Virus record (IMG/VR): IMGVR_UViG_3300043409_000965
Location: 1 to 28,942 of that record
Length of the DNA stretch: 28,942 nucleotides
Source of the DNA: a virus
Reading direction: 5' to 3' (one strand)
This document shows positions 5,919 through 26,003 of the stretch, in pieces. The notes beneath the pieces are model-generated. The model had not been told where the DNA came from, made no database searches, and saw nothing but the letters and a program-made list of their open reading frames with translations. Within the stretch, counting starts at the first letter, position 1, and each line of letters begins with the position of its first letter. Position numbers and translations under genes: made by a program.

Positions 5919-7235
<1,317 letters not shown>

Positions 7236-7253
7236 AATATATATAGTTTAGTT

Positions 7254-10200
7254 TTAAGTTGGAGGTGTTGACACTGCACCGTTACTATAATAGACTTCAC
7301 CGACATAGCCGGTAAAAGGAGATCCTGCTTCGTAGTACAAGTCGTTGAAGATACCGTTCCCACTCGCATTTAGTCCAGGTATCAGCGTACCTCCAATGTA
7401 CCAGCCATCAGTATCGTTTGTTCCTGTGTATGGGTAGCCTCCTTCGTAGTACAATTGGTCTGATTCTCTAGTACCATCTCCATTCTCATCTAGTCCAGTT
7501 ATCAGTACGCCCCCAATGTACCAGCTACTGCCAGAGCCTCCTGTGCCTACACTATTCAGGCCATCCATAAGTACACCCTCAATGTACCAGCCATTAGTAC
7601 CGTTTGTTCCTGTGTATATACTGCCTCCTACGTAGTACAGTCCTCCGCTAGTACCAGTCCCACTCGCATTTAGCCCAGTCATAAGTACTCCATCAATGTA
7701 CCAATACCCTGCATGAGCTCCTGTTCCTGGAGGATCTATCAAATTTGTGGCGTAGCCGCCGGATACGAAATAAAGAGACCCAAATTCATGCGGTGAAGTG
7801 AGATTCCATGGCGGTTGCGAATATAGATTCGCATTAACTAGCCCCGAGAATGGGGTACCATTGAGGAAATACTGCCAAGCGCCAGTTATTCCATTACCTG
7901 AGCTATCCAACGTAGTTGCTGCGCCTTGATAGTAATAGGTACCAGGTTCCGGTTCCGCCAACCATCCACTACCTGAGCTATTCAAAGCATACGGTACACC
8001 TGCGATGTAGTAAGGACCACTAGGTGTGAGCCATCCTGTACCTGCAACATTTAAGCCAGCAGCTATCAATCCTCCAATGTACCAACCATTAGTGCCGTTA
8101 GTTCCGGCGAATAGTGAGCCAGCCACATAATAGTAGCCTACAAAAGGCGAACCTGCAAGTGATACACCTGTACCGCTACTATTTAACCCGAAGTAAGGAT
8201 ACCCTCCAATACACCAGGATGTTCCGTTCCATCCAGTCAGTGGCGCGCCTCCAGAATAATAAAGCTCGCCAATCTGACCCGCGCCGAATTGGTCTAAGGT
8301 AAGCCGCTCTGTACCGTTAACGAAATAAGGGCCGCTAGGCGAAAGCCACCCTGTTCCGCTTTGATTCAATCCTATTTGTTTTACTCCTGAGACATACCAG
8401 CCGCCATCCCATCCACCCGTTCCTCCAGAGTTTAGAGTTGTCTCTGCTCCACCGATATGATAAATATCGGTTCCTGTAAGAGCATAGTCCACACCATTTA
8501 GAGCGTTCCCTACTTTATACCACAATAGCGGTTCAACTGTTCTGCGTCCGGTCCCTGACCCATTCAATCCGTCCACAATCGCACCAGCTATGTACCAGAC
8601 TCCGCTATACTGGTTATTTACTACAGCACCATTTCCTGTGTACAAGCTTCCGTTAATGTAGTACTTTTGGCTTGAGGTATGTAGACCTGTACCTTGGCCA
8701 TTTAACCCCCACATCCGTACACCCTCAATGTACCAGGCGTCTCCGTCCCCCCCTGTACCGGCACTATTTATCCCTGACTTATACACACCAGATATAAAGT
8801 ACTTTTCCTCACTGACTACCCAGCCTGTTTTCAGTACGTTTTGTACATAATAAAGCCCCCCAAGATAGCCTGTCCCTTCACCATTCAAGCCTTGCTGTAC
8901 CACACCTAGCACATAGGTCAGATCTCCGCTAGATCCTGTACCTTCACCATTTAATCCAGGGTAAGCGACCGTTAACATATAATATATGCCTAATGAGCCG
9001 CTGGTGTACTGAGGCGTATCGCCTACGTTGTTAGTGGTAATCCAGCCAGTACCCAGATAATTCACAAGGTCGCTATATACTCCTAGAATGTAGAACCTGC
9101 CACGATTGTAGTTGTTATCTTGCTGTGGGTCAGCATCATTACCTGTTACACTCCATCCTGTGCCCTCATTATTTAATCCTACCGTTAAACTACCGCTTAC
9201 AAAGTATTTGTATGGTGATCCAAAAGGGTGAGCTGCCCAGTAACCTGTACCAGTAGAGCCAAATGGAGAAAGCACTCCGGACACATAATAACGGCTAGTT
9301 GATGGCTGCCAACCTGTACCCGTATAGGGCAATTCAACTATGTAGTCACCAGCAACGTAATACTTACCGTAATTTCCAGAGTTATCTTGATTTGGGTCAG
9401 AAGTATTACCCGTTATATGCCATCCTGTGCCGCTGCTATCTAACCCGGTAATTATCACGGCTGCAATGTACCAATAGCCTCCGTTGGAACCTGTACCCTC
9501 GCTGTTCAATCCTGACTTCCAGACGCCTTCGATGTAGAATTTCGCAGAGGGTGCGTGCCAACCTGTACCTGCAGTGTCCAAGCCTACTTTGAGTTCTCCT
9601 GCTACGTAGTAACCTTCTCCCAAGCCGATAGTAGGATCGTTAGGATCTTCATAGTGATAGCCAAAACCTGGGATTGAAAGCTCTGGATATTTGTAACCAG
9701 CTATAAACCACGTCGATTCAGCTGCAGAGTAGCCTGTTTTGAGATTACCGTCAGTGTAGTAACGGTGCTGCCAGTAACCTAAACCGGCACTGTCTAGAGT
9801 TGTAGGGTTTCTACTGATGTAGTACGTGCAAAAGTTACAACGAATATTTGTCTCTAGTCCGGCTGCGAATAAATAAGCGGCCCCGCTTCCGTACACTCTA
9901 CCCAGGTCATAGAGCTCGTAAAACTCATCTAAAGTGTATAATCCTGCTGGTATATCATTAGGTGGAGTCACCTCACCACCACCAGCTATTCCAGATGTAC
10001 GAATGCGATACTCTCTTTCTATAGTTTCTCCACCTATCCATCCTTTGAACACTTTCGCCATGAAAAGATTAGATAAATCGGTGTTGAATGTTTGATCAGG
10101 AGGCATCCACCCCACTGCTCCATCTGAGTTAAATATAGCCCACGGTTGTATCTTATTTAAGAAGTAGTTTTTAGTTCTTAAATACATTGCCTGAGCATTT

Positions 10201-13200
10201 GTAATAGATCCTATTTGCTCTAGGCCGATAGCGTCTACTTGTATGTTAGTTATCTCAGCAAAATTTCCAGGGTCTAGCGCAGCAAACTGCTGCCCGGTGA
10301 GGCTTAGTAATTGGTCTGTGGTTATACCTACAAATTGTAGAGAATTAAACCCAGCTATCTGCTCCTCTGTAAAAGAACTGAGTTGCTCTGTTGTAATTGC
10401 CTGAATCTGTGTGGTAGAAAATGCCTGGATGCGGTTAGCAGGTATCACATCAATCTGCTCAATAGTCAGTGCAGGTATAGCGGAGGCGCTGATAGCTCTC
10501 AGTTGAGGTACGTTAAGTAATTCTATGGCTGTGGTACTTACATATGGAAGTTGCTCAAGAGATAATGCACCTATAGCTGTAGTTGTAAGCGCACTCACAG
10601 CTGTAGTATTAAGACTCAATGCCGTAACGTCTCCGACGGTCATGCCAGCTACCTGGATAGATGTTATTGCGCCTCCCTGCTCAAGTGTAAGTGCCGCAAT
10701 TTCTTCATCGGTCAGCACGCTAAATTGATAAGCTGACATCGCAGCGAAAGCAGTTGTAGTCATGCCAGGTAACGCCGCAGGAGACAAAAGACTTACCCAG
10801 TCACGGAAAAATTCGTCGTTTAGTCCGATTATTTGTGTACTAGTTAATGCCCCGATTTGACTTTCAGTTAATGCGCCTACAGCCGCGTTATTCAAGGCAG
10901 CCAGTTGTGGTGCACTGATACTGGCTATGGCAGATGCTGTAATTGCTGCGGCATCTTGAGGCTCGAGCGCGAAAATTTGTCCACCTGTAAACGCTGCAAC
11001 TTGTGCAGTCGTCATGGCCGCTACTTGTGCAGGGGTTAGCGACGGAATGTCCGCTACTTCTATAGTCCTGACCTGAGTTGAAGTTAACGAACGAATTTGT
11101 GTGGTGGTCAAAGCTGCAATTTGTGCAGCAGTTAATGCTATGATTTTGGGCAGGCTCAGTGTCGATATTACCGTTGTGGAAAACGCCGCAATGTCCCTAG
11201 GTTCCATTGCAGCTAGCTGAATTGTACTCAATGTAGCTACCTGTGTAGAGGTTAATGCCCTCGCTTGAGTAGTTGAAATCGCCTGCAGCTGCTCGACCGA
11301 AAACTGCGCAATAGGTATGGCTGCAATCGCCGCTGCTGACAACGCTGATATATCTGGAACCTCTATCGCTGCAAGCTGAAGAGTACTCAAAGCCTCCGCC
11401 TGTGTAGAACTTAGCGCACCTATTTGAGAATATGTCAGTGCCGGAATATCCACCAGCTCTAATACACCTAGCTGTGCAGTAGTCAGCGCCTGAATTTGTG
11501 GAACAGTTAGTGCCGATATTTGCAGCGTGGTCATCGCCTCAATATTGTCCGTACTTAACGAAGCAATGACTGTGGTTGAAAAAGCTGCAATGTCTCTAGA
11601 CTCCATCGACACCAATTGAAATGTGCTCAGCGTAGCCACCTGCACAGAAGTCAATGCTCTAGCTTGAGCTGTGGTAAGAGCTACTAGCTGTGTTGTAGAG
11701 AATTGAGATATAGGAATAACGGCTACCGCAGCTGGAAGCATGGCTGCCAGGTCTTGAGTTTCTAGTGCAGCTAACTGAGTGCTTGTAAATCCTACAGCTT
11801 GTGAGGCAGAGAACCCAGTCATTTGTGCGGCAGTAAGAACCGGAATGTCCTGCACTTCAATAGCCTGCACCTGCGATGTATTCAGCGCCTGAATTTGTGT
11901 AACAGTCAGTGCCGATATTTGCAGTGTGGTCAGCGCTTCAATCTTGTCTGTGCTTAGTGAAGCAATGACTGCGGTAGTCAAGGCTGCGACATCTCGCGAC
12001 TCCAGCGCTTCGAACTGCAGCGTACTCAGTGTAGCCACCTGTGTAGAAGTCAACGCGCTAGCCTGAGCTGTGGTAAGAGCTACTAGCTGTGTTGTAGAGA
12101 ATTGAGATATAGGAATAACGGCTACCGCAGCCGGGGTCAACGCAGCCAAATCCTGAGTTTCCATTGCCGCAAGTTGAGTGCTTGTAAATCCTTGTGCCTG
12201 TACAGCAGAGAAGCCTGCCATTTGTGCGGTGGTGAGAAAAGGGATGTCTCTGACCTCTATAGCTGCTAGTTGACTGGAAGTCAGTGCACCAAATTGGGTA
12301 AGGGTCATTGCGGCAATCTGTTGTTCCGTCAGCGCCTCAATTTTGGTTGATGTTAAAGAATTAATGACTGTGGTTGAAAGTACCGCTATGTCTCGAGGCT
12401 CTATAGCGTTGAGTTGTGAGGTAGTAAGCGATTCAATTTGAGTTGAAGTTAAAACAGCGACTTGTGCAGTAGTAAGCTCTGAGATCTGCTCTAGAGAAAA
12501 TTGCGAAATAGATATTTCTGCTATGACTGTAGTTGTAATTGCAGCCAGATCATGAGGTTCTAGTGCAGCTAATTGTGTAGTGGTTAATGCTTTTACTTGA
12601 GCTGAACTGAGCGCGGCAGCCTGTGTAGGAGTCAGTGCCACTATTTCAGCTGTTGTGAGTGCACTTATGTTCGTAGTAGAAATTCCAGAAATAGCTGCAG
12701 TAGTCAAAACTGCAAAATCATGAGGCTCCATACTGGCCAGCTGTGTGGAAGTGAGTGCGCTGACTTGTGTGGATGTTAATGCACTTGCCTGTGTAGTGGT
12801 CAGTGCAACTATACCTAAAGTATTCAATGCAGCTAACTGTGTAGTTGAAAAGGCTTCCAGCTGCGCAGTAGTCAGTGCAGCCACTTGTAAAGATGTAAGC
12901 GCTGCAATACTTGCTGTACTGAGACCAGCTAACGCAGCAGTGGACAGTGCTGGGATGTCTTGAGTCTCCAGAGCTGCAATCTGATTAGGTTGAAATCCTG
13001 AAAGTTGTGTAGATGACAACGTAGCTACTTGCGCAGTAGTCAACGCCGGGATATCTTGAACTTCAATTCCTGCTAGCTGTGTGCTTGTGAACGAACCAAC
13101 CTGTGTAGTAGTGAACGCCTCTATTTGAGACGAGGTCAATGCTGTCAGGTCAGCTGCAGTTAACCCAGTTAGCGCAGTGGTGGTAAGCACTACAATATCC

Positions 13201-14165
13201 CTTGTCTCTATCGCCTGCAGTTGCGTAGAAGTAAGACTGTTGAGCTGTGCAGACCCTAGTGCAGCTACCTGGTCAGTGGCCAAGGCTGTAATATCTTTAG
13301 GCTCAATCGCACTGAACTGTGTAGACGTAAATGAGTTTAATTGTGTAGATGTCAGCGCCTGTACCTGAGCCTCAGTGAGAGCCTGCATATCTCCTGTGTT
13401 AAGAGCTTGCAACGCTGATGTGGTTATAACTGCCAAGTCCCGAGGCTCGATGGTCTGTAACTGTGCCGAAGTCAGTGTTTCGATTTGCGCGGATGTAAGT
13501 ACAGCAGCTTGCTCGGTAGTTATGGCCACCAATTGAGTGCTTGAAAAAATTGTCAGCTGGGTACTGGTAAGATTACTGAAAGAACTGGTATTAAATCCAG
13601 CCACCTGTTCGCCTGTAAGTAAAGCTACTGCCGTAGTCGTCAGTGCAATAGATTGCTCCGAAGTCATGGACTTTACATCAAACGGTGTAAGATTCTGTAC
13701 TTCTTGGGTTGTGAGCGCAGCCACTTGTGAGGTTGTCTTTCCCACAACATCAGAAACAAATCTGAGTGCAGCATACTGTGGAGCAGTCAGTGCACTGAGT
13801 TGGGGCTGCAGTATACTGTTAACAGCTCCGGGAAGTATAGCTGCCAGCTGAGTTGTACTCATCGCCGACAACTGCGCTACGGATAAAGCTACAATGTTTG
13901 CCTCAGGAAATGCAGCTATCTGTGCGGTTGTGAGCGCTTGCACCTGCTCTACTGTCAACGCAGCTATCTGAGCTAAACTGAATGCAGCTACAACCTGAGG
14001 AGACAGAAGCCCGCTCAGTTGTTCCGGTGTAAGTGTGAGTATAGGTCCTGTACCCATACCTTTTACGTATCCCGCTGTCCATCTACTTGCAGGAAGTAAG
14101 ACAGGAACTAGAAAGAACCGCATCCCTGTAGATAAAGCCGCACCGAATGAAGATAAGAATGACAT
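7254..14165 (-). CDS. Giant two-part repeat protein (~2300 aa), putative virion fibre
   Basis: The start is taken at the ATG at 14165, seven bases after the upstream stop; an in-frame ATG at 14192 would add nine residues and overlap that gene. A ~45-residue non-repeat head leads into about 160 tandem octapeptides of the form [LF]-[ST]-[ST]-x-Q-[IVL]-x-[AS] (10185-14033). A bridging region of ~100 residues follows (MYLRTKNYF ... LFAAGLE, with one CNFC motif). The last ~870 residues are ~30 repeats of about 20-25 residues with the pattern W/Y-Y-[IV]-x-G-[VA]-x-x-x-G-L-[ND]-x-x-G-T-G. The second half recalls the aromatic-glycine rhythm of choline/glucan-binding repeats but is not clearly that family. 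I know of no protein that combines these two halves. The position inside a fibre array suggests a surface fibre that binds host polysaccharide; this is inference. Confidence 0.85.
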   Translation of the reverse strand: MSFLSSFGAALSTGMRFFLVPVLLPASRWTAGYVKGMGTGPILTLTPEQLSGLLSPQVVAAFSLAQIAALTVEQVQALTTAQIAAFPEANIVALSVAQLSAMSTTQLAAILPGAVNSILQPQLSALTAPQYAALRFVSDVVGKTTSQVAALTTQEVQNLTPFDVKSMTSEQSIALTTTAVALLTGEQVAGFNTSSFSNLTSTQLTIFSSTQLVAITTEQAAVLTSAQIETLTSAQLQTIEPRDLAVITTSALQALNTGDMQALTEAQVQALTSTQLNSFTSTQFSAIEPKDITALATDQVAALGSAQLNSLTSTQLQAIETRDIVVLTTTALTGLTAADLTALTSSQIEAFTTTQVGSFTSTQLAGIEVQDIPALTTAQVATLSSTQLSGFQPNQIAALETQDIPALSTAALAGLSTASIAALTSLQVAALTTAQLEAFSTTQLAALNTLGIVALTTTQASALTSTQVSALTSTQLASMEPHDFAVLTTAAISGISTTNISALTTAEIVALTPTQAAALSSAQVKALTTTQLAALEPHDLAAITTTVIAEISISQFSLEQISELTTAQVAVLTSTQIESLTTSQLNAIEPRDIAVLSTTVINSLTSTKIEALTEQQIAAMTLTQFGALTSSQLAAIEVRDIPFLTTAQMAGFSAVQAQGFTSTQLAAMETQDLAALTPAAVAVIPISQFSTTQLVALTTAQASALTSTQVATLSTLQFEALESRDVAALTTAVIASLSTDKIEALTTLQISALTVTQIQALNTSQVQAIEVQDIPVLTAAQMTGFSASQAVGFTSTQLAALETQDLAAMLPAAVAVIPISQFSTTQLVALTTAQARALTSVQVATLSTFQLVSMESRDIAAFSTTVIASLSTDNIEAMTTLQISALTVPQIQALTTAQLGVLELVDIPALTYSQIGALSSTQAEALSTLQLAAIEVPDISALSAAAIAAIPIAQFSVEQLQAISTTQARALTSTQVATLSTIQLAAMEPRDIAAFSTTVISTLSLPKIIALTAAQIAALTTTQIRSLTSTQVRTIEVADIPSLTPAQVAAMTTAQVAAFTGGQIFALEPQDAAAITASAIASISAPQLAALNNAAVGALTESQIGALTSTQIIGLNDEFFRDWVSLLSPAALPGMTTTAFAAMSAYQFSVLTDEEIAALTLEQGGAITSIQVAGMTVGDVTALSLNTTAVSALTTTAIGALSLEQLPYVSTTAIELLNVPQLRAISASAIPALTIEQIDVIPANRIQAFSTTQIQAITTEQLSSFTEEQIAGFNSLQFVGITTDQLLSLTGQQFAALDPGNFAEITNIQVDAIGLEQIGSITNAQAMYLRTKNYFLNKIQPWAIFNSDGAVGWMPPDQTFNTDLSNLFMAKVFKGWIGGETIEREYRIRTSGIAGGGEVTPPNDIPAGLYTLDEFYELYDLGRVYGSGAAYLFAAGLETNIRCNFCTYYISRNPTTLDSAGLGYWQHRYYTDGNLKTGYSAAESTWFIAGYKYPELSIPGFGYHYEDPNDPTIGLGEGYYVAGELKVGLDTAGTGWHAPSAKFYIEGVWKSGLNSEGTGSNGGYWYIAAVIITGLDSSGTGWHITGNTSDPNQDNSGNYGKYYVAGDYIVELPYTGTGWQPSTSRYYVSGVLSPFGSTGTGYWAAHPFGSPYKYFVSGSLTVGLNNEGTGWSVTGNDADPQQDNNYNRGRFYILGVYSDLVNYLGTGWITTNNVGDTPQYTSGSLGIYYMLTVAYPGLNGEGTGSSGDLTYVLGVVQQGLNGEGTGYLGGLYYVQNVLKTGWVVSEEKYFISGVYKSGINSAGTGGDGDAWYIEGVRMWGLNGQGTGLHTSSQKYYINGSLYTGNGAVVNNQYSGVWYIAGAIVDGLNGSGTGRRTVEPLLWYKVGNALNGVDYALTGTDIYHIGGAETTLNSGGTGGWDGGWYVSGVKQIGLNQSGTGWLSPSGPYFVNGTERLTLDQFGAGQIGELYYSGGAPLTGWNGTSWCIGGYPYFGLNSSGTGVSLAGSPFVGYYYVAGSLFAGTNGTNGWYIGGLIAAGLNVAGTGWLTPSGPYYIAGVPYALNSSGSGWLAEPEPGTYYYQGAATTLDSSGNGITGAWQYFLNGTPFSGLVNANLYSQPPWNLTSPHEFGSLYFVSGGYATNLIDPPGTGAHAGYWYIDGVLMTGLNASGTGTSGGLYYVGGSIYTGTNGTNGWYIEGVLMDGLNSVGTGGSGSSWYIGGVLITGLDENGDGTRESDQLYYEGGYPYTGTNDTDGWYIGGTLIPGLNASGNGIFNDLYYEAGSPFTGYVGEVYYSNGAVSTPPT
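7260..9890 (-). repeat. Aromatic/glycine repeats (Y-Y-[IV]-x-G ... G-L-N-x-x-G-T-G)
   Basis: About 30 degenerate units of 20-25 codons encode two aromatics, an x-x-G step and a GLN-x-x-GTG turn. Examples are WYIGGVLITGLDENGDG and YYVAGELKVGLDTAGTG. Some units are shortened to TNGTNGWYI. Units diverge in sequence but keep the spacing of aromatics and glycines. Confidence 0.85.
10185..14033 (-). repeat. Octapeptide (24-nt) tandem repeat array, ~160 units
   Basis: Units such as LTTAQVAA, LTSTQLAA and LSTLQFEA follow each other without gaps. Every 4-7 units one carries an acidic E-x-x-D variant (IEPRDIAV, LETQDLAA, IEVQDIPV). Hydrophobic residues fall at unit positions 1 and 6 and Ser/Thr at 2 and 3. 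The periodicity breaks near both ends, at about residues 110-150 and around the sequence NDEFFRDWVSLL. Confidence 0.9.
10920..12515 (-). repeat. Exact 399-nt (133-aa) super-repeat, four copies
   Basis: Four copies begin at 12515, 12116, 11717 and 11318 (minus strand) and run to 10920. Each opens with a 13-residue variant unit (ISISQFSLEQISE, IPISQFSTTQLVA twice, IPIAQFSVEQLQA) followed by 15 octapeptides with matching E-x-x-D positions. The spacing is exactly 399 bases each time. Confidence 0.9.
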
Positions 14166-14172
14166 AGGGTTA

Positions 14173-15342
14173 TTAACCGAAAAATGATACAACGTTACCC
14201 AGTATTAAGAAGTCTGCAGAAGCTTTTTTTAATATTGTAAAACTGTAATTAGTGTATGAATTTATCGATGATCCTGCAGGCGGTGTACCAGCCAGCCAAT
14301 AAACAGTTTTCAGTGCACCATCAACACTAACACTCGACATATTGTAGGCAGCATCTGCACCCTGTTTAACCATCAATACAAAACTCAAAGCTTGCCCAAT
14401 TCCCATAACTGTATTTAATGAGAATTCTCCATTCCCCCTAATATTCAATGCAAACAGGTTAGCGGCGTTACCCTGAAATACCAATATTTGTTGAGAAAGA
14501 ATATCGTAGTTTAAGGTTGAGGCAGGGCAACCTGAATCAAACATGCTAATTTCTCTAGCAGCTGCAGGTAGTACGGAATTGCCTGCCCCGTACGATGCAA
14601 TTGATCTGACTAATATCTGCGTACCTGGGGTAGGAGGTGCAGTAGTCAGTAATAGTGTCCCTCCGTTGGCTGCAGTTATAGAATAGTTTGTACCAGGCAC
14701 CTGGTCCATTGCACCCACACTTACAGTATAGCCATCTGGATCTATACCATTATATCCAAGAATAGGATAGTATAATACCTGCCCAGCTATTGAAGTAAAT
14801 GTTGTAGATTTAGATCCTGTGGTGAGGAATATAACGCCTGTGGCACCTGTCGCACCAGAGCCTGCAGGTCCTGTGGCTCCTGTAGGTCCGTCTGGCCCTC
14901 CGCCGGCTCCTGTAGGGCCTACCACACCTGTGGATCCTTGGACCCCAGTAGCGCCATCGACACCAGTAGCTCCCGTTGCTCCGGTAGCTCCTTGCACGCC
15001 TGTGGATCCTTGCACGCCGGTAGATCCATCCACTCCACCTGATTCGCCCTTTGGTCCTGTAGATCCTGCAGGACCTGTTGCTCCTAATGAACCGGTCGCA
15101 CCTAGCGCGCCTGTCGCTCCGGCAGTTCCTCCTGCACCAGTACCTACTTCAGTCCAACCTGCTCTGTCTGTATTTAATTTATATGCTTTATTGTCTTCTA
15201 AGCATGCTACGATTTGGCCTGCGTATCTGGCATTATTGGCTAAATACGCAGTTAGTTCGACGTTTGTGGCGAAAACGCTATGTAGGTCTAACGGTCCAGG
15301 GTATTGTCTTGAAAATTGAAGTGGGAATTCGAAAAAGGCCAT
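14173..15342 (-). CDS. Collagen-like virion fibre protein, 389 aa
   Basis: Residues 1-68 form an N-terminal domain ([20 protein letters not shown], then [17 protein letters not shown]) that is clearly paralogous to the start of the protein at 15359-17272. It probably anchors both to the same site on the virion. Residues ~70-170 are collagen-like Gly-X-Y with many Gly-X-Thr triplets. Residues ~171-250 match the fibre domain also found in 5919-7235 ([16 protein letters not shown] against INGYNGTDPAGYLISVDG). The C-terminal ~120 residues ([30 protein letters not shown]) match that protein's C-terminal domain. The spacing to the neighbours is 16 nt upstream and seven nt downstream, so it sits in one leftward operon. 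Confidence 0.85.
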
Positions 15343-15358: not shown

Positions 15359-17272
15359 TTAAATTACTACATTATAAGACATTGCCTGACCAATAGCGTT
15401 AGCTGGTACAAATCTGTAAACCTTATAATTTACAGCATAACCTGGACCTGCTCCCTCAACAGATGGCGTAAACAGGGTCCATGATCCTTTGACGTCAGTA
15501 TTAAGAACACTTTCTTTGATACTAGTAACTGCTCGAATAGTATCTGGGTATGCCAACCATATACTCGTAACACCTACAGCAACAGGAATTGAAAACGCGG
15601 TGCCAGCTCCTGGACTATTTGCTGTACCTGAAAGGCTTCGTATAAAACTACTTGTAGGCTCCTGCACAGGGTTAGCTTGGTTTATCACTGCCGAACTTGT
15701 ACCGTAGAAAAGCCTTCTATACCCTGTCATAGAGAATGCGCTCTCTGGTGTTGTAGCGCTACCGAGCGGTGCACCCGGCGGATAATCTGCACCAGTGCTG
15801 TCCTTAGCCTGCACACTACCCGCGGCGTAATCAACGGTAGCCCTGTAATAAACAGTGCTAGCTGTATAAGTAACGGCTCCTATAACTGACGTGTTTTGAG
15901 GCGCAGCCAGGGTTACATTGTTAATTGTATAATCTGTAGCTGCTCCTGCTCTTGCACCTTGTGTAGCACTCGTAGACCACGCGTTATTCACAATATTACC
16001 ATTAATACTTCCAGGGCTATAGGTCACTGTTAGCGTTAGTGACCCTGTTGTACCTACCTCAGCAGTTGATGCTAAATTAGCGATTAATACTCCCGAAGGG
16101 GGTGTGAGGGTTGGGTAGAAAGTTGACACCAGTAACTTTTGAATAAACCCACCCAAAGTTGTACCGGAGTTGATTATAAAGCCTGCAGGTAATGCTCCTA
16201 GCGCTATGTTTGTAGTGATAGAGTCGGCGGTAACAGTCAAACTGGATCCTTCAGGTACATTGATGCTTCCTGCAGGTCCTGTCGCACCCAAGGCTCCTGT
16301 GGCTCCTGCTCCTGTAGCTCCTGCTGGTCCTGTAGCTCCATCTGGGCCAGTAGCTCCTATTCCTGTAGCGCCAGTAGAGCCTAGTACACCAGTGGCTCCT
16401 GTGGATCCTAATACAACTCCTGTGGCTCCTGTAGGTCCCACTACACCTGTCGAGCCATCAACACCAGTAGACCCTGTTACACCAGTAGCTCCCGTTACTC
16501 CTGTAGCACCATCGACACCAGTAGATCCTGTTACTCCTGTGGATCCTTGGACTCCTGTGGATCCTTGGACTCCTGTAGCACCATCAACACCTGTTGCTCC
16601 TGTTACTCCTGTGGATCCTTGGACTCCTGTGGATCCTTGGACTCCTGTAGCACCATCAACACCTGTTGCTCCCGTTACGCCTGTGGATCCTTGCACTCCA
16701 GTAGCGCCATCAACACCTGTTGCTCCTGTCACACCTGTGGAGCCTTGCACGCCGGTAGATCCCGTTACTCCAGTAGCACCATCAACACCTGTTGCTCCCG
16801 TTACTCCAGTAGATCCTTGCACGCCTGTAGCACCATCCACACCAGTGGATCCTTGGACTCCTGTGGATCCTTGTACTCCTGTGGATCCTTGCACGCCTGT
16901 AGAACCATCCACACCAGTGGATCCTTGGACTCCTGTGGATCCTTGTACTCCTGTGGATCCGTCAACACCAGTAGATCCTGTTACTCCTGTGGATCCTGTT
17001 ACACCTGTTGCTCCTGTTACGCCTGTGGCTCCCTGAGAACCTGTAGCTCCGGTAGCGCCAGTACCCGAACCTATCCCAAGTTCTTCCCACGCAGTTCTAT
17101 CTGGATTTAACTTATACGCTTTATTTGTTGCGACGCATGCGACAATTTGTCCTGCATACCTTAAAGAATTACTTAAATAGGCTGTAAGTTCAGCTTCTGT
17201 AGCGAAAACGGCGTGAACATCTAACGGTCCAGAATATAGCCGAGAATATTGAAGTGGAAAATCTAAAGGCAT
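15359..17272 (-). CDS. Long collagen-like virion fibre protein, 637 aa
   Basis: The N-terminal ~68 residues ([20 protein letters not shown]) are paralogous to the protein at 14173-15342. Residues ~72-337 are almost uninterrupted Gly-X-Y triplets, roughly 88, dominated by [12 protein letters not shown] and GVD, with Thr very often in the third position. Residues ~338-637 form a beta-rich C-terminal region ([42 protein letters not shown]). It is paralogous to the C-terminal region of the next gene and is of a type I recall in many phage fibre proteins. The DNA of the collagen part contains a near-perfect 72-nt duplication (16531-16674). The gene is probably a trimeric fibre with a C-terminal receptor-binding or trimerisation head. 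Confidence 0.88.
15719..15890 (-). repeat. Highly similar block shared with 17628-17800
   Basis: About 170 bases encoding the conserved middle of the C-terminal domain are close to identical with 17628-17800 in the next gene. The first ~35 bases are identical and the rest differ mostly at scattered third positions. Flanking parts of the two genes are much more diverged. Confidence 0.8.
16531..16674 (-). repeat. 72-nt tandem duplication in collagen-like coding sequence
   Basis: Bases 16531-16602 and 16603-16674 differ by one base by eye. Each encodes 24 residues (eight Gly-X-Y triplets). The surrounding sequence is made of diverged copies of the same 9- and 18-nt units. Confidence 0.85.
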
Positions 17273-17276
17273 ATGA

Positions 17277-18893
17277 TTAGGCAGGTAAAGTTACTGAATA
17301 TCTGACAGCGCTATTGAAAGGAGCATCTCCTGTCCACGTATATACTTTATAAGCTATGCCAGCTTCTGAGTTTGCTCCCTCTACAGTGAAAGGGGTTTTA
17401 ACAAAGGTATTACCTACAGCCGTATTAGCCGCTTCTACGTATTTCACAGATTCATCCACTAGATCGCCATGGCTAGTAGCTGGATAGGCTATCCATATTT
17501 TAATAGAACCTGCAGGTATATTGATTGTGAAATTAGATGCTGTGCTAACAGCGGACCCTGTCAAACTACGTATGTTGTTGCTTGTTACTGGAGCCTTGGT
17601 ACTAGTAGCGCCGTAGAACAATTTTCTATACCCTGTCATAGAGAATGCGCTCTCTGGTGTTGTCCCGGCCTCTAACGGCGCACCCAGCAGATAATCTGCA
17701 CCGGTGCTGTCCTTAGCCTGTACACTACCCGCAGCATAATCAACGGTAGCCTTGTAAGAAACAGTGCTAGCTGTATAAGTAACGGCTCCTATAACTAACG
17801 TGTCTTGAGTCGCACCCAGGTTTACATTGTTAATTTTATAATTTGTAGCTGCTCCTGCCCTGAAGCCTTGAGAAGTGCTGGGACTCCATATGCCCCCTAC
17901 GGTTTGTCCCACTATGCTTCCTCGATTATAAGCTACAGTTAAAGTTAAATTTTCCGTGGTGCCGATTTCAGCAGAACTAGATATGCTCCCGGCTAGTGAG
18001 GCGGTTGGAGGATTTAAAGTTGGGTAGAAAGTTGATACCAATAGCTTCACAACAAATTCCTGAAACGTTGTCCCTGTATTGATTAGTGTGTTTGCAGGTA
18101 TTGAACCTACTGCGGTGTTTGAAGTGACCGATGACGATAGTGCAGCTAAAACTGTACCTTCAGGTATAGTAAGATCTCCTTTAGGTCCTGTCGCACCCAA
18201 GGCTCCAGTAGCCCCATCAACACCAGTAGCTCCTGTTACACCTGTTGCCCCTGCAACCCCAGTAGCTCCTAATCCTGTTGCGCCGACTGATCCAGTGGCT
18301 CCTGTGGATCCTAATACAATTCCTGTGGCTCCTGTAGGACCTACCACACCTGTTGAACCATCAACACCAGTGGATCCTGTTACCCCAGTAGCTCCCGTTA
18401 CTCCAGTAGATCCTTGGACCCCAGTAGCACCATCCACACCAGTAGATCCTTGCACTCCTGTGGATCCTGTTACCCCAGTAGATCCTTGAACGCCGGTAGA
18501 GCCATCAACACCTGTGGATCCTTGCACGCCGGTAGATCCTTGAACGCCGGTAGAGCCATCAACACCAGTAGACCCTGTTACTCCTGTCGATCCTGTTATG
18601 CCGGTAGCTCCTGTAGATCCTGCGATTCCAGTTGCTCCAGTTGCTCCGGCAGGACCTGTGGCACCAATAGCACTTCCGACCTTTATGACAAGATCTCCGT
18701 CGGCTATGCCGGTAGCAAACCAGTATTCAGCCATTATATTACTTACGGTACCTACACCCACTATCAAGCCATGATATCTAACGCTTGGTAGCAGTGCAGC
18801 TAGCGCTGCTTCTGGTCCAGTATATGGACCGTATCTATGGTCAGTAGGTCTAGGAGCAAGTACATTAATGTTGTCGCTAAGAGGAATAGGCAT
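17277..18893 (-). CDS. Collagen-like virion fibre protein, 538 aa
   Basis: The N-terminal ~76 residues ([20 protein letters not shown], then [10 protein letters not shown] and YWFATG) differ from the two downstream paralogues in detail but keep the same type of anchor layout. Residues ~77-238 are Gly-X-Y collagen-like, rich in GST/GVT/GVD/GAT. The C-terminal ~300 residues are a full paralogue of the C-terminal region at 15359-17272. One block ([30 protein letters not shown]) is almost unchanged between them, while the last ~100 residues have diverged. It lies four nt upstream of the next gene. It is probably an alternative or companion fibre; divergence at the tip fits a receptor-facing end. 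Confidence 0.87.
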
Positions 18894-18901
18894 AAACTAT
18901 A

Positions 18902-20515
18902 TTAGTTACGAAATTGTACTGGAGTTGTACCTGCATATGCAGCTGGAAAGGCACTTATATACACCCTAAAATTAGTTGTCCATTTACTTGCAGGTGCGAT
19001 AATAGACTTGGTTACTGGCGCTAATATAGCCTGCCCTGCACCTATAGGGGCATTGTCAAGGGCGCTAATGTAGTAATTTGTTTTATCTGAGTACATTGCA
19101 GCATGCGCAAACCAAATGTATTCGCTAGGAGTATTGTTAAAGGTTATAGTCACAGGCGATACTGATGCAGGCGCTAGTACTTTAGTTGCACCGATTCCTG
19201 TATTTATCGCCGCAGCTATAGTGTTTACGGTAGGTTGTGTAGCAGATTTACCGAAGTAATATGGATATATACCTGCAAATGAATATGGAATAGAAACGGC
19301 CGTACCGCCGCCAGCGTAAGGGTTATCTACCAGCACGCCTCTACTGTTTTTTAATTGTTGCCCTCCTGCCGGGTAAGTAGCTTCAAACTGCAGAGTGACT
19401 GGAGTCGTGGTAGCGGTGATTAATGGCGGATTATTTGGGCTACCATAGTTCATGCTCACACTATACTCTATATTCGGACCATTAGGGTTAGCATACCCGA
19501 ATTGAGGACCAAGGTAATAGGTTATCGCCGGGTTATTTAGCTCAATTGTATCAAAAATGTCCATAGTCCGCTTAACTTCCCCGTTTTGTTTAAGTACAAT
19601 AGTGGGTGCTCCAACATTGGCATTATTTTTAAAGTAGGTGGCAGAGACAGCGTTGAAGAAATCTCCTAGCCCATCAGCCGGCCGGCCGATACTTAATTTA
19701 TCTCCTACTTCTACGGTACCTAAATTAAACCTGCTCCACATCAGAGGGGCAGCTATCGTGGGTGCAGTCACTGGGAACAATAGCTCGTCGATTACATAGC
19801 TCATCGACTTATCTTTCCAATCTGACGCTGGTCTTGCTGTAGCTCCTCCTACAGTCGTACTCATCATCGCATCAATCACACTAGGTACGTAATTTCCCCC
19901 TGCTCCAGTAGCTCCTACTGGTCCTGTGGCCCCTTCCACACCGGTAGCACCAGTAGATCCTTGCACACCTGTGGATCCTTGTACTCCTGTTGCTCCTGTT
20001 GCTCCCGTTACTCCAGTAGCACCATCAACACCAGTAGATCCTTGCAATCCTGTGGCTCCTGTCGAACCCATAAGTCCTGTTGCACCTGATAACCCAGTTG
20101 CCCCATAAGTACCTGTTGCACCAGTTGCGCCAGTTGCCCCATTACCTCCTCCGCCAGCAAAGGACGCCAATGTCCAGTTAGCTATTGTATTTGGTACTGC
20201 CCCAGTACCTGTATTCCTAGACTGGGCCCCTATTAGTTTATACTTGTAATAGCTGTCACCGGCACGTTCAGTAGCTGGAACAGGAGGAGTAGCAGCTGGG
20301 TCTCCGTCAGCTTCAGTGTACGCTGTCTTCACGTACACAAGCATCCCTTCTTGTAGACGCTGCCCTGGTATGTTTAAGAGTTTATCTGTGCCTGTACCTG
20401 TAATGCTTTGTAATGTGCCTCGCAGATCAGTATCAAGTACTACAGGTGCTGGCGAGGCAGAGGTCCAAGTTCCTGGCCAGTAATTCGGAGACAGTCCGTC
20501 AAAATTTGCACTCAT
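18902..20515 (-). CDS. Collagen-like virion fibre protein, 537 aa
   Basis: Residues 1-125 form a distinct N-terminal domain ([44 protein letters not shown]) unlike the other fibres here. Residues ~126-205 are collagen-like with Gly-X-Thr triplets. The C-terminal ~330 residues are beta-rich and end with the same kind of domain as its neighbours: [35 protein letters not shown] near the end. The match to the paralogues is at the level of pattern (aromatic-FG, IWFA/IWIAYP, YxVY) rather than close identity. It is nine nt upstream of the next fibre gene and one nt downstream of the 830-aa one. Confidence 0.85.
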
Positions 20516-20516
20516 A

Positions 20517-23009
20517 TTAAGATATACTCACGTATGTTGTTCCTGGCTGCAGCGTGAAGCCCCAAAGTCTATAAGCTTCTTTAGTTTGGTCTGTAGGTAA
20601 AGGGTTAGGTCCTAGATCTACAGATCTTTGAACCACACCTGCAACGTTTGCTGCATCTTCAGCTTTAGTACCTGTCTTAAACGCAGTGGGAGGTGAAGCT
20701 GCATTGCGTACACCAAACCAGAATGCTACAGGATTTCCTGCAGGCACGGTAATGAGGCCTGCAAACGCTTTAGCTTGACTGTCGAGTACTTGCACACCTC
20801 CAGCAAACCCATCACCGCTGACGATAGTTGCCTCAGTAGGTACAATCGAAGTCTCCGCTGTAAACACATAGAATGACGGGTACGTGAACTGTGCATTTGT
20901 ATTTACGCTGGCTGACTCAGTCGGACCTAAAGTGACTGTGACAGGCGTATTTCCGATAACACTGCTGGGTCTTTCGCAGGTGGTAGTTAACGTTACGTTT
21001 GTAGTGGTGGATGCTGCATTGGTTTTATTGATTGGTGTATCAAAGGTCAATGTACCTGCATCAGTAGTGTTATAAGGAGCGCTAGCTTTGCTATTGTTTG
21101 CAGTGATACTGAACGTCCTGTTTGCAGCAAAAGAAATGTTTGGAGTAGATGGTGTATACGTGGTAGAGGTGTACGCTCTAAGAAATGTATTTCCTGTCAA
21201 TGGAGTGATTGCTATATTGTGAGTAGCGTCTCTCCATGTAAAAATGACTCGCGATTTGGCAGGGCTCTCAACTGTAGGCCATGGCCCCACTACCCCAGCA
21301 TTTGAATAATTTACAGTAACATCTGCGCTGGCTGTGCCTCCCAGATAATTATCAGATGTAGAAAGTATTTTCTCTGTACCTACAGGATATGTTAGTAGCA
21401 TGTTTGTTAACGAAGCTCCTATAGTTCCTGTCCTTGTATATTTATCTAACCCAGGGAACACACCTGTAATCGGTGTAAGACTCAGAGGCTCTGTAATAAA
21501 TTGGGCTGGAGTATCCGTCGGATTAGTGGCTGCAATGAACCATGACGCGACCGGAATATCCCAATTAAGAGTAATATTTGACTGTATTAACGTAGGATTG
21601 AAAGAAGCCAGCGTCAGTTCTAGGATACCATTCAGCAGCGAGACTGTACGGATAGGGGCTACTACATCTGGTGTACCGTTGTCACGAAAACCTGTTAACC
21701 TTCTTACAGAAGCTGCGGTAGTAAATACAAGGTTACCTGCAGCATTTCCTGGTGCTCCTGAAGCACCAGTAGCTCCTGTGGGTCCACCTGCCGGACCTGT
21801 AGCTCCTTCAGGTCCTGTTGCACCATAACCTGTAGCTCCAGCAGTACCGGTAGCTCCAGCGACCCCTGTCGCACCTGCGCCAGTTGCACCAGCAGGTCCT
21901 GACTGTGCGTATAATAGTTGTCTGATGGCTAACGTGGCTGAGGGTACAGGCACCCCGCCGTAAGCAATAGCTTTTACCAAATACATTACACCTGCACCGC
22001 TTGCCTGCTTTAGTCCGATATAAAATCCTGCACTTGTATCCGTTACATTTAAAATAAATGTATTAGCTACCTCTCTAATGGTAGTGGTTGCGATAGGAAT
22101 GTAATGAACTTCGGTGGTGTTAGGTGCTAACCCTGGACTTGTACCACCTACAAACTGACCATATACTGTCAAATTTCTAGCTACGCTAGAATTCGTAACA
22201 TAGAAGGTATATGAAATTTCGTAAATACCACCTTTGGCAAAAGAAATAATTCCGTTAGTTATAGTGATACCTTCAGCACTAGCTGCAGTAGCAGTAGGTC
22301 TCATCAACCGGACCTCAACATCTATAGGAATAACTACATCTGCATCAGATACAGCATTTTTAACAATAGCGTATGTACCTGGCACAACTACAGCAGGAGC
22401 TCCGGTAGCTCCAGTTAATCCTGTGGCTCCAATTCCTGTAGCTCCGGTTAATCCGGTAGCTCCGGTTAATCCGGTAGCACCAGTAGCTCCGCTAGGGCCT
22501 GTAGCTCCGTCTGGTCCAGTAGCTCCACTAGGTCCAGTAGCTCCACTAGGTCCAGTAGCTCCATCTGGTCCAGTAGCTCCGGTGGCACCTAGTCCTGTAG
22601 CTCCGTCTGGTCCAGTGGCTCCAGTTGCACCTAATCCAGTAGCTCCAGTTGCACCTAATCCGGTAGCACCGCTAGGTCCAGTAGCTCCTTCAGGTCCTGT
22701 AGCACCGCTAGGTCCGGTAGCTCCTGCACCTGTAGCTCCAGTTGATCCTAGACTGCCTGTGGCCCCGGTAGCTCCTAAAAATCCGGTAGCGCCTGTTGCC
22801 CCTAAACCAGTAGCACCGACTACCCCTGTTGCACCTAACGAGCCTGTCGCGCCAGTGGCTCCAATTCCAGTTGCACCAGTTGCCCCTAGTCCGGTAGCAC
22901 CTGTTGCTCCTCTAGCTCCTGTAGCGCCTGTTGCTCCATCTGCTCCTGCAGAACCTGTTATAAAAGTACCCGCCGTCCCGGCTGCTGGTGCTGATGTAGA
23001 AAAGAACAT
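20517..23009 (-). CDS. Large collagen-like fibre protein with C1q/TNF-like domain, 830 aa
   Basis: A short head is followed by a collagen-like segment (~21-205) built mainly of GAT triplets with regular one-residue interruptions (GLGATG, GIGATG). Residues ~207-365 ([38 protein letters not shown]) have the pattern of a C1q/TNF-like jelly roll, as in the trimeric C-terminal domain of Bacillus BclA. A second collagen segment spans ~368-421. The last ~410 residues are beta-rich and end in a domain related to the other fibres ([36 protein letters not shown]). A jelly roll between two triple helices suggests a trimeric rod with a knob part-way along it. It lies nine nt after the 180-aa gene. Confidence 0.86.
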
Positions 23010-23613: not shown

Positions 23614-24504
23614 TTATCCTACCAGAAGATTTAGCCAATTGTCGAGAGAGTATTTCCAGTCAAAATTATCTTTTGCGTACTGCTGAGCTCTTTCACACTC
23701 AGTTTTGTATACTTTTGGATCTGTGCACGCCAACAGAGCTTTCCTAGCATCTTCGACGAAACCCTCGTCGTCAGTTCTGCAGAGCATGCCTGCGGCACCA
23801 TTAAAATAACCTACTTCTGTAGATATCACCAACCTGCCTGCGGCAGCAGCTTCCATTGAAGGAAGTCCTGCTGTCTCGCTAGATGATGGCACCAGTATGG
23901 CGTCAATTGTCGGATAATATCCTGACATGCATATGTGATTATAAAACTCATGAACCTTAAAATTAAAAGGCATACCCTCCATTACAGGAGGAATAAGATG
24001 TGTGCGCTTACAGTCTACGTCATAAACGGTCTTGTGTGCACTATCTCCAGCGTAGCCTACAACTCTCAAAGACTCTGCTACAGGTGTGTAATAATGATCA
24101 AAGTCTATACCTACACGTACAAGCTCTGGTGTTCTTGCTATACCCCTAGCAAGAGAAGCCGCTATCAGATCAGAATGCACAACGCCATAGCTTTTTAACT
24201 CGTTGAACATCTGCACGCCCACTGTCTGAATTCCCCCTTCAATGTCTCTTTCTGAGTGCGCTATTGAAACTATTTTTGAAGGAGATATACCTGCAGCCAC
24301 TAACGCAAACACGGCTTCAGGTGTAGTGACGAACGTATCATATCTTGAGTTTAAAAGATTGTATTCATTGCTAGTATACGGCTGTGTCCAATCTAGTAGC
24401 TGTGAGAATATCTTATGTTCCCACAGTCTTTTAATCAACGCATGGTGTATTTGACCGAAAGCCCATCTATTTTGAGTAAAGAATAATACAGTGTGTTGTT
24501 TCAT
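23614..24504 (-). CDS. GT4-family glycosyltransferase, 296 aa
   Basis: This is a GT-B fold glycosyltransferase. Residues 210-218 (ETAGLPSME) form the E-x7-E motif of retaining GT4 enzymes, followed by AAAAGRLVIST as in the donor-sugar site. The N-terminal half is short (VLFFTQNRWAFGQI, then LLDWTQPYTSNEY). It is a clear paralogue of the gene at 25107-26003: both are ~297 aa, with the E-x7-E motif at the same residue numbers and the same ending (CERAQQYA, DW). The stop of the FkbM-like gene lies one base before this start, so the two are translationally linked. The donor and acceptor cannot be told. A role on virion fibres or on host surface sugars is possible. Confidence 0.88.
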   Translation of the reverse strand: MKQHTVLFFTQNRWAFGQIHHALIKRLWEHKIFSQLLDWTQPYTSNEYNLLNSRYDTFVTTPEAVFALVAAGISPSKIVSIAHSERDIEGGIQTVGVQMFNELKSYGVVHSDLIAASLARGIARTPELVRVGIDFDHYYTPVAESLRVVGYAGDSAHKTVYDVDCKRTHLIPPVMEGMPFNFKVHEFYNHICMSGYYPTIDAILVPSSSETAGLPSMEAAAAGRLVISTEVGYFNGAAGMLCRTDDEGFVEDARKALLACTDPKVYKTECERAQQYAKDNFDWKYSLDNWLNLLVG

Positions 24505-24505
24505 G

Positions 24506-25114
24506 CTATTTGCGAAATATTAATACCAATTCGTCACCTGATTGTGCTCCCGTCTCATATCCGTGTGATGCAGCCTGCGTGAGTAGCATCTGTAACTCTT
24601 TGCGACAAGTCATACCGTTATTTTCAAAAATAATCTTACGAGGTAGCCACTCTTTTTCTTTACCGCTGTGTTCAAAATATCTGAAAAAACTCATCAGAAT
24701 TCTACAATCAGCTCCCTCAGTATCTGTTTTAAGTGTTTTTATTCCCTCGACGTCATGCTCATCAAGTATTTTTCCTATAGGTAACTGGAGCACATTTTCT
24801 TTTCTAACAATGTCGCGGATGTTTAGCTTTAAGTGCTCTACATGGTAATCATCTATTCTATTACAACCTCTCAGCCACGAAGGTAAATTACGGCGAGCTA
24901 TATCGTCAGGATGTACGTAATATATTGTGCTTATTCTTTCAATATCGTCAAACGCTACAGCTAATTTTAATTTTTTAACGTTAGGTTTATCAGGTAATCT
25001 GTCTAGGTAGTAACCCAACGGCTCAATAACAAGGCCGACGCTGTCTTCAGCGCATGTCTGCACTATAGTGTCAAAATCACTAGTCCCTATTTCTATAAAA
25101 TCAAAATTACTCAT
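24506..25114 (-). CDS. FkbM-like SAM-dependent methyltransferase, 202 aa
   Basis: The start MSNFDFIEIGTSDFDT is a motif I-type SAM-binding loop and begins almost at residue 1, which is typical of short phage FkbM-like proteins. VIEPL at about 29-33 is the second SAM-contact motif. LKTDTEGADCRIL at 128-140 is the characteristic FkbM acidic motif. FkbM-type enzymes mostly O-methylate hydroxyls on sugars and natural products. The gene sits between two paralogous GT4 glycosyltransferase genes, with an eight-base overlap to the upstream one and a one-base gap to the downstream one. This placement suggests it methylates the glycan those enzymes make. I infer this from position only. Confidence 0.82.
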   Translation of the reverse strand: MSNFDFIEIGTSDFDTIVQTCAEDSVGLVIEPLGYYLDRLPDKPNVKKLKLAVAFDDIERISTIYYVHPDDIARRNLPSWLRGCNRIDDYHVEHLKLNIRDIVRKENVLQLPIGKILDEHDVEGIKTLKTDTEGADCRILMSFFRYFEHSGKEKEWLPRKIIFENNGMTCRKELQMLLTQAASHGYETGAQSGDELVLIFRK

Positions 25115-26003
25115 AGCTAGTAAGCAGTTCTACATATTTGTTTATTACGTTGTCCCAGTCATAATGCTCTCGCGCATACTGCTGGGCTCTTTCACAATTA
25201 TCTCTGTATACGACAGGGTCTTTACAACGTTCAAGATGAGAAACCGCATCAATTATAAACTCTTCATCTGGAAGCCTACACAGCAACCCAGAGCTACCAT
25301 CAAAGCTGCCGGCTTGGGCTGCAAGTACAAGCCTACCTGCTGCAGCCGCCTCCATTGCAGGTAGTCCGCAACCCTCATATTTCGACGTTACCAATAAACT
25401 ATCTATGGTCTCATAATAGCCAGCCACACACATGTGGTACATCCTGTTGTTTATTTTCAATGGTAGTTCTGCAGCTTCTGAAATAGGCTTTAAAAGATAC
25501 GACCTCTTAAAGTCTGAAAAATCGCTCATTTCGCTTGAAGCTGCTCCTGCATAGCCAAGTGTTTTGAGGCTAGGGCTTATTGAAGAATAGAAATAATCAA
25601 AATCTATACCGTTAGGTACAACTAAAGGTACACGAGATATGCCGGCTCTGTGTGACACATCGACCAAGTGCTCATGGATCACACCGTAAGCTTGCAACTC
25701 GTCATACATTCCTAGCCCGCACCTATTTATGCCAAATATAATATCTTTTTCATGATGTGCTACAGCAATAATTTTAGACTTAGGTATGTTGTACGACATT
25801 ACACTATCTATCGCGCTAGGTTCGGTAACTATTGCGTCGAATTTACGCATCAAGAACTCAAATTCTTGATGCGTGTAGCTTTTGCGCCAATCTAATATGT
25901 GGGCATAGATGCCGTACTTAGCCAGTCTTCTGGTGAGGGAGTTATAAATCTGCCCAAAGGCCCAGTCGTTCTCGAAAAAGAACAATACTCTTTTTTTATT
26001 CAT
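25107..26003 (-). CDS. GT4-family glycosyltransferase, 298 aa
   Basis: This is the paralogue of the gene at 23614-24504. The starts VLFFFENDWAFGQIYNSLTR and VLFFTQNRWAFGQIHHALIK align without gaps. The E-x7-E motif is at residues 210-218 (EGCGLPAME), followed by AAAAGRLVLA. The VPNGIDFDYFY segment matches the GT4 inter-domain linker. The two copies flank the FkbM-like gene, so duplication and insertion, or duplication around it, is likely. It is the first gene of the three-gene set. Upstream is the 113-nt gap that holds the inverted repeat at 26020-26102. No Shine-Dalgarno is seen; the start is preceded by AT-rich sequence. Confidence 0.88.
   Translation of the reverse strand: MNKKRVLFFFENDWAFGQIYNSLTRRLAKYGIYAHILDWRKSYTHQEFEFLMRKFDAIVTEPSAIDSVMSYNIPKSKIIAVAHHEKDIIFGINRCGLGMYDELQAYGVIHEHLVDVSHRAGISRVPLVVPNGIDFDYFYSSISPSLKTLGYAGAASSEMSDFSDFKRSYLLKPISEAAELPLKINNRMYHMCVAGYYETIDSLLVTSKYEGCGLPAMEAAAAGRLVLAAQAGSFDGSSGLLCRLPDEEFIIDAVSHLERCKDPVVYRDNCERAQQYAREHYDWDNVINKYVELLTSYE

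Follow-up and report, generated by a model that had tools for sequence, protein, structure and literature searches.

The stretch of DNA analysed here, hereafter the window, is the viral record IMGVR_UViG_3300043409_000965 over its full 28,942 bases, and it encodes a long octad-repeat array in one uninterrupted minus-strand frame (7254-14192, 2312 codons). The first codon of this frame is a TTG at 14192, which overlaps the upstream gene, whose stop lies at 14173. Because TTG 14192 falls within that gene, we take the ATG at 14165 as the likely start of the array gene, no clear ribosome-binding site having been seen. The features of the locus are as follows.

7254-14165, minus strand: whole array gene, whose likely ATG start is residue 10 of the open frame, through its stop codon
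14034-14165, minus strand: N-terminal segment of 44 residues, partly hydrophobic and octad-free
10182-14033, minus strand: ALTTAQ (PF20080) octad array, residues 54-1337, delimited by profile match and tiling
11094-12500, minus strand: 133-residue super-repeat part of the array (approximate limits), with E-x-x-D units spaced 7-6-4
11565-12404, minus strand: array stretch folded with AlphaFold2, residues 597-876
7257-10181, minus strand: C-terminal second-repeat region of about 975 residues (1338-2312)
14173-15342, 15359-17272, 17277-18893, 18902-20515 and 20517-23009, minus strand: five upstream collagen-like genes with tail-fibre PHROG matches
5919-7235, minus strand: downstream collagen-like protein with tail-fibre PHROG matches
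23614-24504 and 25107-26003, minus strand: two glycosyltransferases, beyond the upstream fibre genes as seen from the array gene
24506-25114, minus strand: FkbM methyltransferase, between the two glycosyltransferase genes

The array gene is set among six collagen-like genes, on both flanks, whose tail-fibre PHROG matches run through the collagen-like stretches; the array protein itself matches no tail PHROG. The two fibre genes that flank it directly (5919-7235 and 14173-15342) have a common C-terminal domain, phrog_5906, of unknown function. At one end of the window lie a cobalamin adenosyltransferase gene (1464-2039; PF01923, E=6e-40) and, close to it, the C-terminal end of a ribonucleotide reductase (2-511, phrog_367); if that reductase depends on B12, its cofactor may come from the adenosyltransferase.

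A sequence-only reading of this DNA had described the array as an almost unbroken series of octapeptides, and the period is real. Across minus-strand positions 10185-14033 (residues 54-1336 of the 2312-codon frame), residues are identical at lag 8 with a frequency of 0.274, where shuffling gives a mean of 0.104 (sd 0.008) and, in 500 shuffles, never more than 0.135. Octads tiled over residues 54-1329 number 156; four 5-residue units and a final imperfect unit, which reaches residue 1337, complete the array. "Almost unbroken" holds for the period, with 147 of 155 octad junctions free of gaps and the remainder interrupted by 5 residues (four times), 1 (twice), 4 (once) or 2 (once), but not for the motif, since the strict consensus [LIFM][ST][ST]xQ[IVLFMA]x[ASG] fits at 43 places (shuffled mean 0.26, maximum 3). 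Ser and Thr together amount to 2.0 residues per octad, in the window and its relatives alike.

Contiguous octads with L1, T/S2-3, Q5, I/V/L6 and A8 are the pattern of the Pfam family PF20080, "ALTTAQ repeat", which matches the window protein with E=6.1e-165 and 535 bits (cut-off 26.4) over 41 stretches and which a six-frame search of the whole record places at 39 positions. The repeat had earlier been left without a named family, a view that its author held a confident family match would overturn, and this match does so. In addition, phrog_15773, of unknown function, matches both the window array and the array of one viral relative (L015), with best stretches of 46 and 100 residues respectively, and NCBIfam gave no match to the window protein at E<=0.01. 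Pfam matches of the window to CAAP1 and LRR_EndoS, and of a bacterial relative (L018) to Gp5_trimer_C and Sigma70_r4_2, were set aside as composition effects in which no single stretch passes. The Pfam and PHROG scans of the protein returned no family for the 44-residue N-terminal segment.

Overlooked by the earlier reading was a higher repeat of 133 residues, made of 16 octads plus ISISQ, IPISQ or IPIAQ; compared in blocks of 50 residues, lag-133 identity is highest, at 0.52-0.84, for block starts from residue 551 to 851. It corresponds to 17 units of which one has 5 residues instead of 8 (17 units minus 3 residues), and among relatives the commonest best super-lag is 136 residues, or 17 octads, in 39 of 90 frames of at least 600 aa. 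The array has 24 octads with D at position 5, and 19 of these also carry E at position 2. Scoring each 4-5-residue gap as one unit, these E-x-x-D units are spaced 6, 4, 6, 4, 10, 7, 7, 6, 4, 7, 6, 4, 7, 6, 4, 7, 6 and 4 units apart. The 7-6-4 spacing of D5 units also occurs in several relatives, most often L069, L053, L045, L070, L031 and L024, which we take to be Burkholderiales.

The C-terminal region carries a second repeat, mostly of 22-28 residues (YYVxGxLxxGLNxxGTG), that is unlike the octads. It has no Pfam or PHROG match, its last 813 residues have no match among PDB sequences, and AlphaFold2 on the C-terminal 976 residues yielded no usable model (pLDDT 28.9). When two C-terminal stretches were used as queries for related loci, a single contig (L003) was found, near-identical to the window (99.5% over 4331 bases), in which the repeat region is 137 residues longer (window 7257-8365 against L003 1-1520), a difference taken from metagenome assemblies, in which such a repeat region may have been mis-assembled. 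The C-terminal repeat thus seems to alter its copy number, and recently, as might be expected of a host-facing tip.

Relatives of the array were gathered by likeness to the ALTTAQ consensus for bacteria, where the best 80 of 371 candidates gave 76 loci, and with two queries for viruses, where 6 rows from an alignment query and 40 from a consensus query, two of them shared, gave 44 loci; a tiled array was present in 34 of these 44 and the other 10 were dropped. Users of these counts should be aware that some contigs were entered twice (L013/L100, L014/L106 and L015/L099) and that others have arrays of identical size and layout (L015-L017, L094-L097 and L102/L103). Tiling produced 20,065 octads in 125 open frames, which include weak viral rows (about L111-L124) that are perhaps not true members; the longest array has 563 octads and reaches past both ends of its locus (L050). 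The weak rows and duplicates were retained, where long enough, for the D5 spectrum, the couplings, the residue pairs, the E-x-x-D phase and the unit lags described below. The whole window array as query found no related locus. In tblastn searches of cultivated phages there was no match to the window array, which the low-complexity filter may mask, and none to the last 813 residues of the window protein or to the C-terminus of a relative.

The fold of the array was predicted with AlphaFold2 from 280 residues (two super-repeats) aligned with 42 other rows from the window and relatives, which gave a model with a mean pLDDT of 95.9 and a pTM of 0.88. According to DSSP the model contains 33 helices of 4-6 residues, with loops for the rest and zero strands. 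In its first octads the helices cover positions 3-7 or 3-8, making position 2 the N-cap and position 5 the N3 residue. A residue pair at N-cap and N3, the capping box, starts a helix; position 2 is T or S in 74% of octads, position 5 is Q, D or E in 78%, and an N-cap residue at 2 coincides with E, Q or D at 5 in 63%. The prediction therefore supports one short helix per octad, opened by a capping box of T/S2 and Q/E/D5, and agrees with one of the two folds first suggested for the array, a chain of short helices capped by T-x-x-Q. AlphaFold2 can be over-confident on regular repeats. The nearest solved folds listed for the model are helical solenoids, and its best VIA Z of 7.9 (to the engineered protein 4rv1) is inside the range that the tool rates common.

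Covariation offers a separate view of how the octads pack. Direct-coupling analysis of 16,831 unique, down-weighted windows of 13 octads from relatives (effective number 7571) revealed couplings between different octad positions at an offset of three octads (z of 6.0, 4.9 and 4.6 for pairs 6-5, 7-8 and 3-8) and of four octads (5.9 and 4.7 for pairs 7-2 and 7-5). They were weak at offset 1 (2.8) and no higher than 1.3 at offsets 2 and 5-10, and with octads shuffled within arrays the cross-position z was no higher than 0.6. Same-position couplings at offsets 7 and 10, for which the shuffled control reached 2.2 at k=8, may be a product of duplication. The coupled residues make chemical sense. In relatives E2 is coupled to D5 within an octad and to R7 of the next octad, and D5 to A6 three octads before and to V7 four octads before. 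In the window, A stands at position 6 three units before an E-x-x-D unit in 6 of 19 cases against 10 of 148 overall, and V at position 7 four units before it in 5 of 19 against 11 of 147. In the octad after E-x-x-D, R or K at position 7 has a frequency of 28% in relatives against 8%, likely reflecting a salt bridge there, and occurs in none of 19 cases in the window.

The couplings transfer from bacteria to phage. When 16,625 windows from bacterial loci alone served for training, the window array scored z values of 6.9 (k=3) and 6.1 (k=4), with other offsets no higher than 3.0; the part of the window array before the duplications scored 3.5 and 2.5, and its last 32 units 3.8 and 0.5. Among ten other viral runs k=3 was highest or tied in eight. 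Three of the ten (all L098) score high at many offsets, and in the seven others k=4 was at most 2.0, a value reached by L101 only, with five between -0.2 and 0.5.

The spacing of acidic units points to the same geometry. The D5 spectrum of 90 arrays has its strongest mean peak at 3.40 octads and further peaks near 2.43, 5.6-5.7, 2.13 and 8.5 octads, which are harmonics of 17. Same-residue identity at unit lags 2-16 tracks cos(2*pi*k/3.4) with a Spearman coefficient of 0.73 (P=0.002); six other harmonics give no fit at P<0.05. The best same-residue lags in 88 arrays are 17, 34, 51, 27, 10, 44 and 7 units. For runs with at least six E-x-x-D units, 35 of 59 are most concentrated at 3.4 among the six periods tried and 24 prefer another. 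The 19 E-x-x-D units of the window have a phase concentration of R=0.82 at 3.4 octads per turn, and the seven that precede the duplications R=0.84 (P=0.001). E-x-x-D units had been suggested to mark bends; recurring as they do in phase with the superhelix, they would instead form a stripe on one face.

On these data the array probably winds into a superhelix whose turns take about 3.4 octads (about 27 residues) each, with E-x-x-D units along one face. For the family, both pitch and face are firmly indicated by the repeat statistics. For the window, its period, unit lags, coupling scores and partner counts all take a 4-5-residue gap as one unit, and the pitch of 3.4 holds given this assumption, on which it depends because, with short units uncounted, the D5 spectrum of the window array has its maximum at 5.24 octads. 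Prediction and covariation together lend good support to the proposed fold and pitch. The couplings of octad n to n+3 and n+4, their transfer from bacteria to phage and the E-x-x-D phase at 3.4 are new in this analysis.

We favour, with moderate confidence, the explanation that the array is a PF20080 helical-superhelix rod of about 3.4 octads per turn that most likely serves as a virion fibre shaft in the window phage. The shaft role is proposed because the array gene stands among tail-fibre-like collagen genes. Each octad would form one short alpha helix (about positions 3-8) begun by its capping box, with L1, I/V/L6 and A8 presumably supplying the core. Successive helices would wind into a superhelix in which octads n and n+3/n+4 stack, the counterpart of the i to i+3/i+4 relation between residues of an alpha helix, and E-x-x-D octads would substitute for T-x-x-Q at spacings that hold one face. 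With a rise of about 1 nm for each turn, the roughly 47 turns made by about 160 units would extend to some 45 nm, and the very long rod that was originally envisaged is likely on this evidence. The short N-terminal segment would attach the rod, and the C-terminal repeat region would be its distal, host-facing part, possibly with a receptor role.

The same superhelix could instead be a decoration or spacer of the head or tail tube, an alternative that we regard as unlikely for the window yet that draws on the placement of array genes in other phages. In two viral loci the array gene lies directly behind a portal gene matching phrog_146 (L109, 7305-8792, and L015, 7680-9434), and in a third (L103, 7062-8723) a single frame of 210 residues separates it from the portal gene that precedes it. 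All three array genes lie in the head module, and in L109 the next genes are those for head morphogenesis (phrog_324), protease, minor head and major head proteins. A fourth locus has nine octads within a DUF3383/phrog_205 tail-sheath protein (L094, 2245-4353); L095 and L096 have the same frame size and octads and L097 is shortened, with L094 alone checked by profile. Phages therefore seem to place the ALTTAQ rod in more than one site, and a fibre shaft need not be its general role. The window gene, however, is flanked by tail-fibre-like collagen genes rather than head genes, and its 156 octads exceed the 41, 55, 48 and 9 of L109, L015, L103 and L094. The arrays of L109, L015 and L103 are accompanied by a C-terminal domain of about 120-140 residues, and the 975-residue second repeat of the window was not seen in any of the four.

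A second alternative, which we consider improbable, holds that the phage carries a surface rod that originated in bacteria, mucin-like and glycosylated, in which the sugars on Ser/Thr matter more for function than the rod. The Ser/Thr content of the octads is in keeping with it, as are the two glycosyltransferases and the FkbM methyltransferase near the window fibre genes and the neighbours of the array in bacteria. A GT41 (OGT-like) homologue is found near 26 of 63 bacterial array loci drawn from the best 80 of 371 candidates, a type I secretion ABC protein near 14, HlyD near 10, and any of GT41, ABC or HlyD near 32. This count leaves out 13 of the 76 loci, which have less than 3 kb outside the array; it includes the query locus (L018), partial matches (such as L019 and L083) and near-copies (L086, L090 and L091), and uses GT41 and type I secretion profiles built from matches among these same loci. 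A Pfam check of two loci confirmed GT41 homologues at L018 9760-11595 and L049 670-2769; in the corresponding genomes (G001 and G002) the GT41 matches lie in a single frame at the position of the array's neighbour. GT41 was present in all seven array-bearing genomes searched, and among 14 control genomes the array occurred in Caulobacter only and GT41 in two, Caulobacter being one of them. Whatever holds for the phage, we infer that bacterial arrays are exported, probably O-glycosylated surface rods. Against extending this to the window phage, no GT41 homologue was found in the 34 viral array loci (some of which come from one contig), the Ser/Thr of position 2, as the predicted N-cap, may be unavailable, and the substrates of the phage enzymes may be the collagen-like fibres or sugars of the host. 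Nor was a sequence-close bacterial donor found in the fetched loci, window blocks scoring 0.531 against these relatives and 0.522-0.537 when shuffled, with none above the control.

Two further readings are very improbable. A beta-solenoid rod as in ice-nucleation proteins, the other fold first suggested, would account for the eight-residue regularity with its T/S and aliphatic positions, and LRR_EndoS is matched with E=9e-9 (no single stretch passing), but the 280 residues modelled at pLDDT 95.9 are free of strands, the T2-x-x-Q5 capping box and Ala-rich positions favour helix, and the n+3/n+4 couplings and the helical solenoids nearest to the model point the same way. A tape-measure or internal length-setting protein, as a very long, predicted helical protein with internal duplications might be, is hardly to be expected where the adjoining genes match tail-fibre PHROGs and no tail-tube or tail-assembly-chaperone family is among the matches listed (16 window genes, up to 23561); to our knowledge its C-terminal repeat is not tape-measure-like either.

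Returning to the superhelical rod, we tentatively propose that ALTTAQ arrays form a distinct rod class that repeats the architecture of an alpha helix with alpha helices as its building blocks: about 3.4 octads would complete a turn, and octad n would pack on n+3 and n+4. Bacteria would deploy them as type I-secreted, GT41-glycosylated giant surface rods of hundreds of octads and phages as virion rods, with 17-octad super-repeats, equal to five turns, keeping E-x-x-D units in register on one face. The sequence-derived pitch, the E-x-x-D face and the neighbours (GT41, type I secretion and fibre genes) give a concrete, testable rod model. Protein designers should also take an interest in such very long natural rods, in which copy number determines length.

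Among known systems, TAL effector repeats begin LTPEQVVA, a likeness to the octad that had been put down to chance. Although one viral relative (L101) has a 14-residue match to PF03377 (E=0.0047; 17.7 bits, under the 28-bit cut-off), the window protein has none at E<=0.1, and TAL units of 34 residues differ from the window periods of 8 and 133; we therefore reject membership of the TAL family. Mesothelin, with stereocilin and otoancorin, shares the build of a short-helix solenoid and is the best Foldseek match to the array model in the PDB, where the eight best rows are all mesothelin (E 1.9e-4 to 6.7e-3). It is described as a coil of nine layers, a right-handed solenoid built from 24 short helices, with a repeating unit of two or three helices (PMC10035497). 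Its units are thus not octads, the TM-scores are 0.24-0.35 and no sequence relation is demonstrated; as far as the model goes, the similarity is one of build and not of family membership.

The closest solved relative appears to be 9zem, "HeliScrew4", the single chain that stands out in the PDB sequence set, with a phmmer E-value of 1.2e-11 (probably inflated by low complexity) for the window and 2.3e-16 for a bacterial array as query. The aligned chain is made of the window's octad and its name suggests a helical screw, whereas it is a single entry of 120 residues with an idealised sequence, compared here by sequence alone. It is absent among the Foldseek matches listed (library to 2026-04-08), and full-text literature searches found neither a paper describing it nor a reported function or geometry for PF20080 or the ALTTAQ repeat. 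The octad repeat of the window thus belongs to an already named family with an apparent solved relative. With the other members of PF20080, which in bacteria have up to 563 octads (in a frame open at both locus ends), the window array shares the octad motif; it differs from them in a super-repeat of 133 residues where 136 is usual, and in being joined to a second repeat, unlike the C-termini of the bacterial members inspected.
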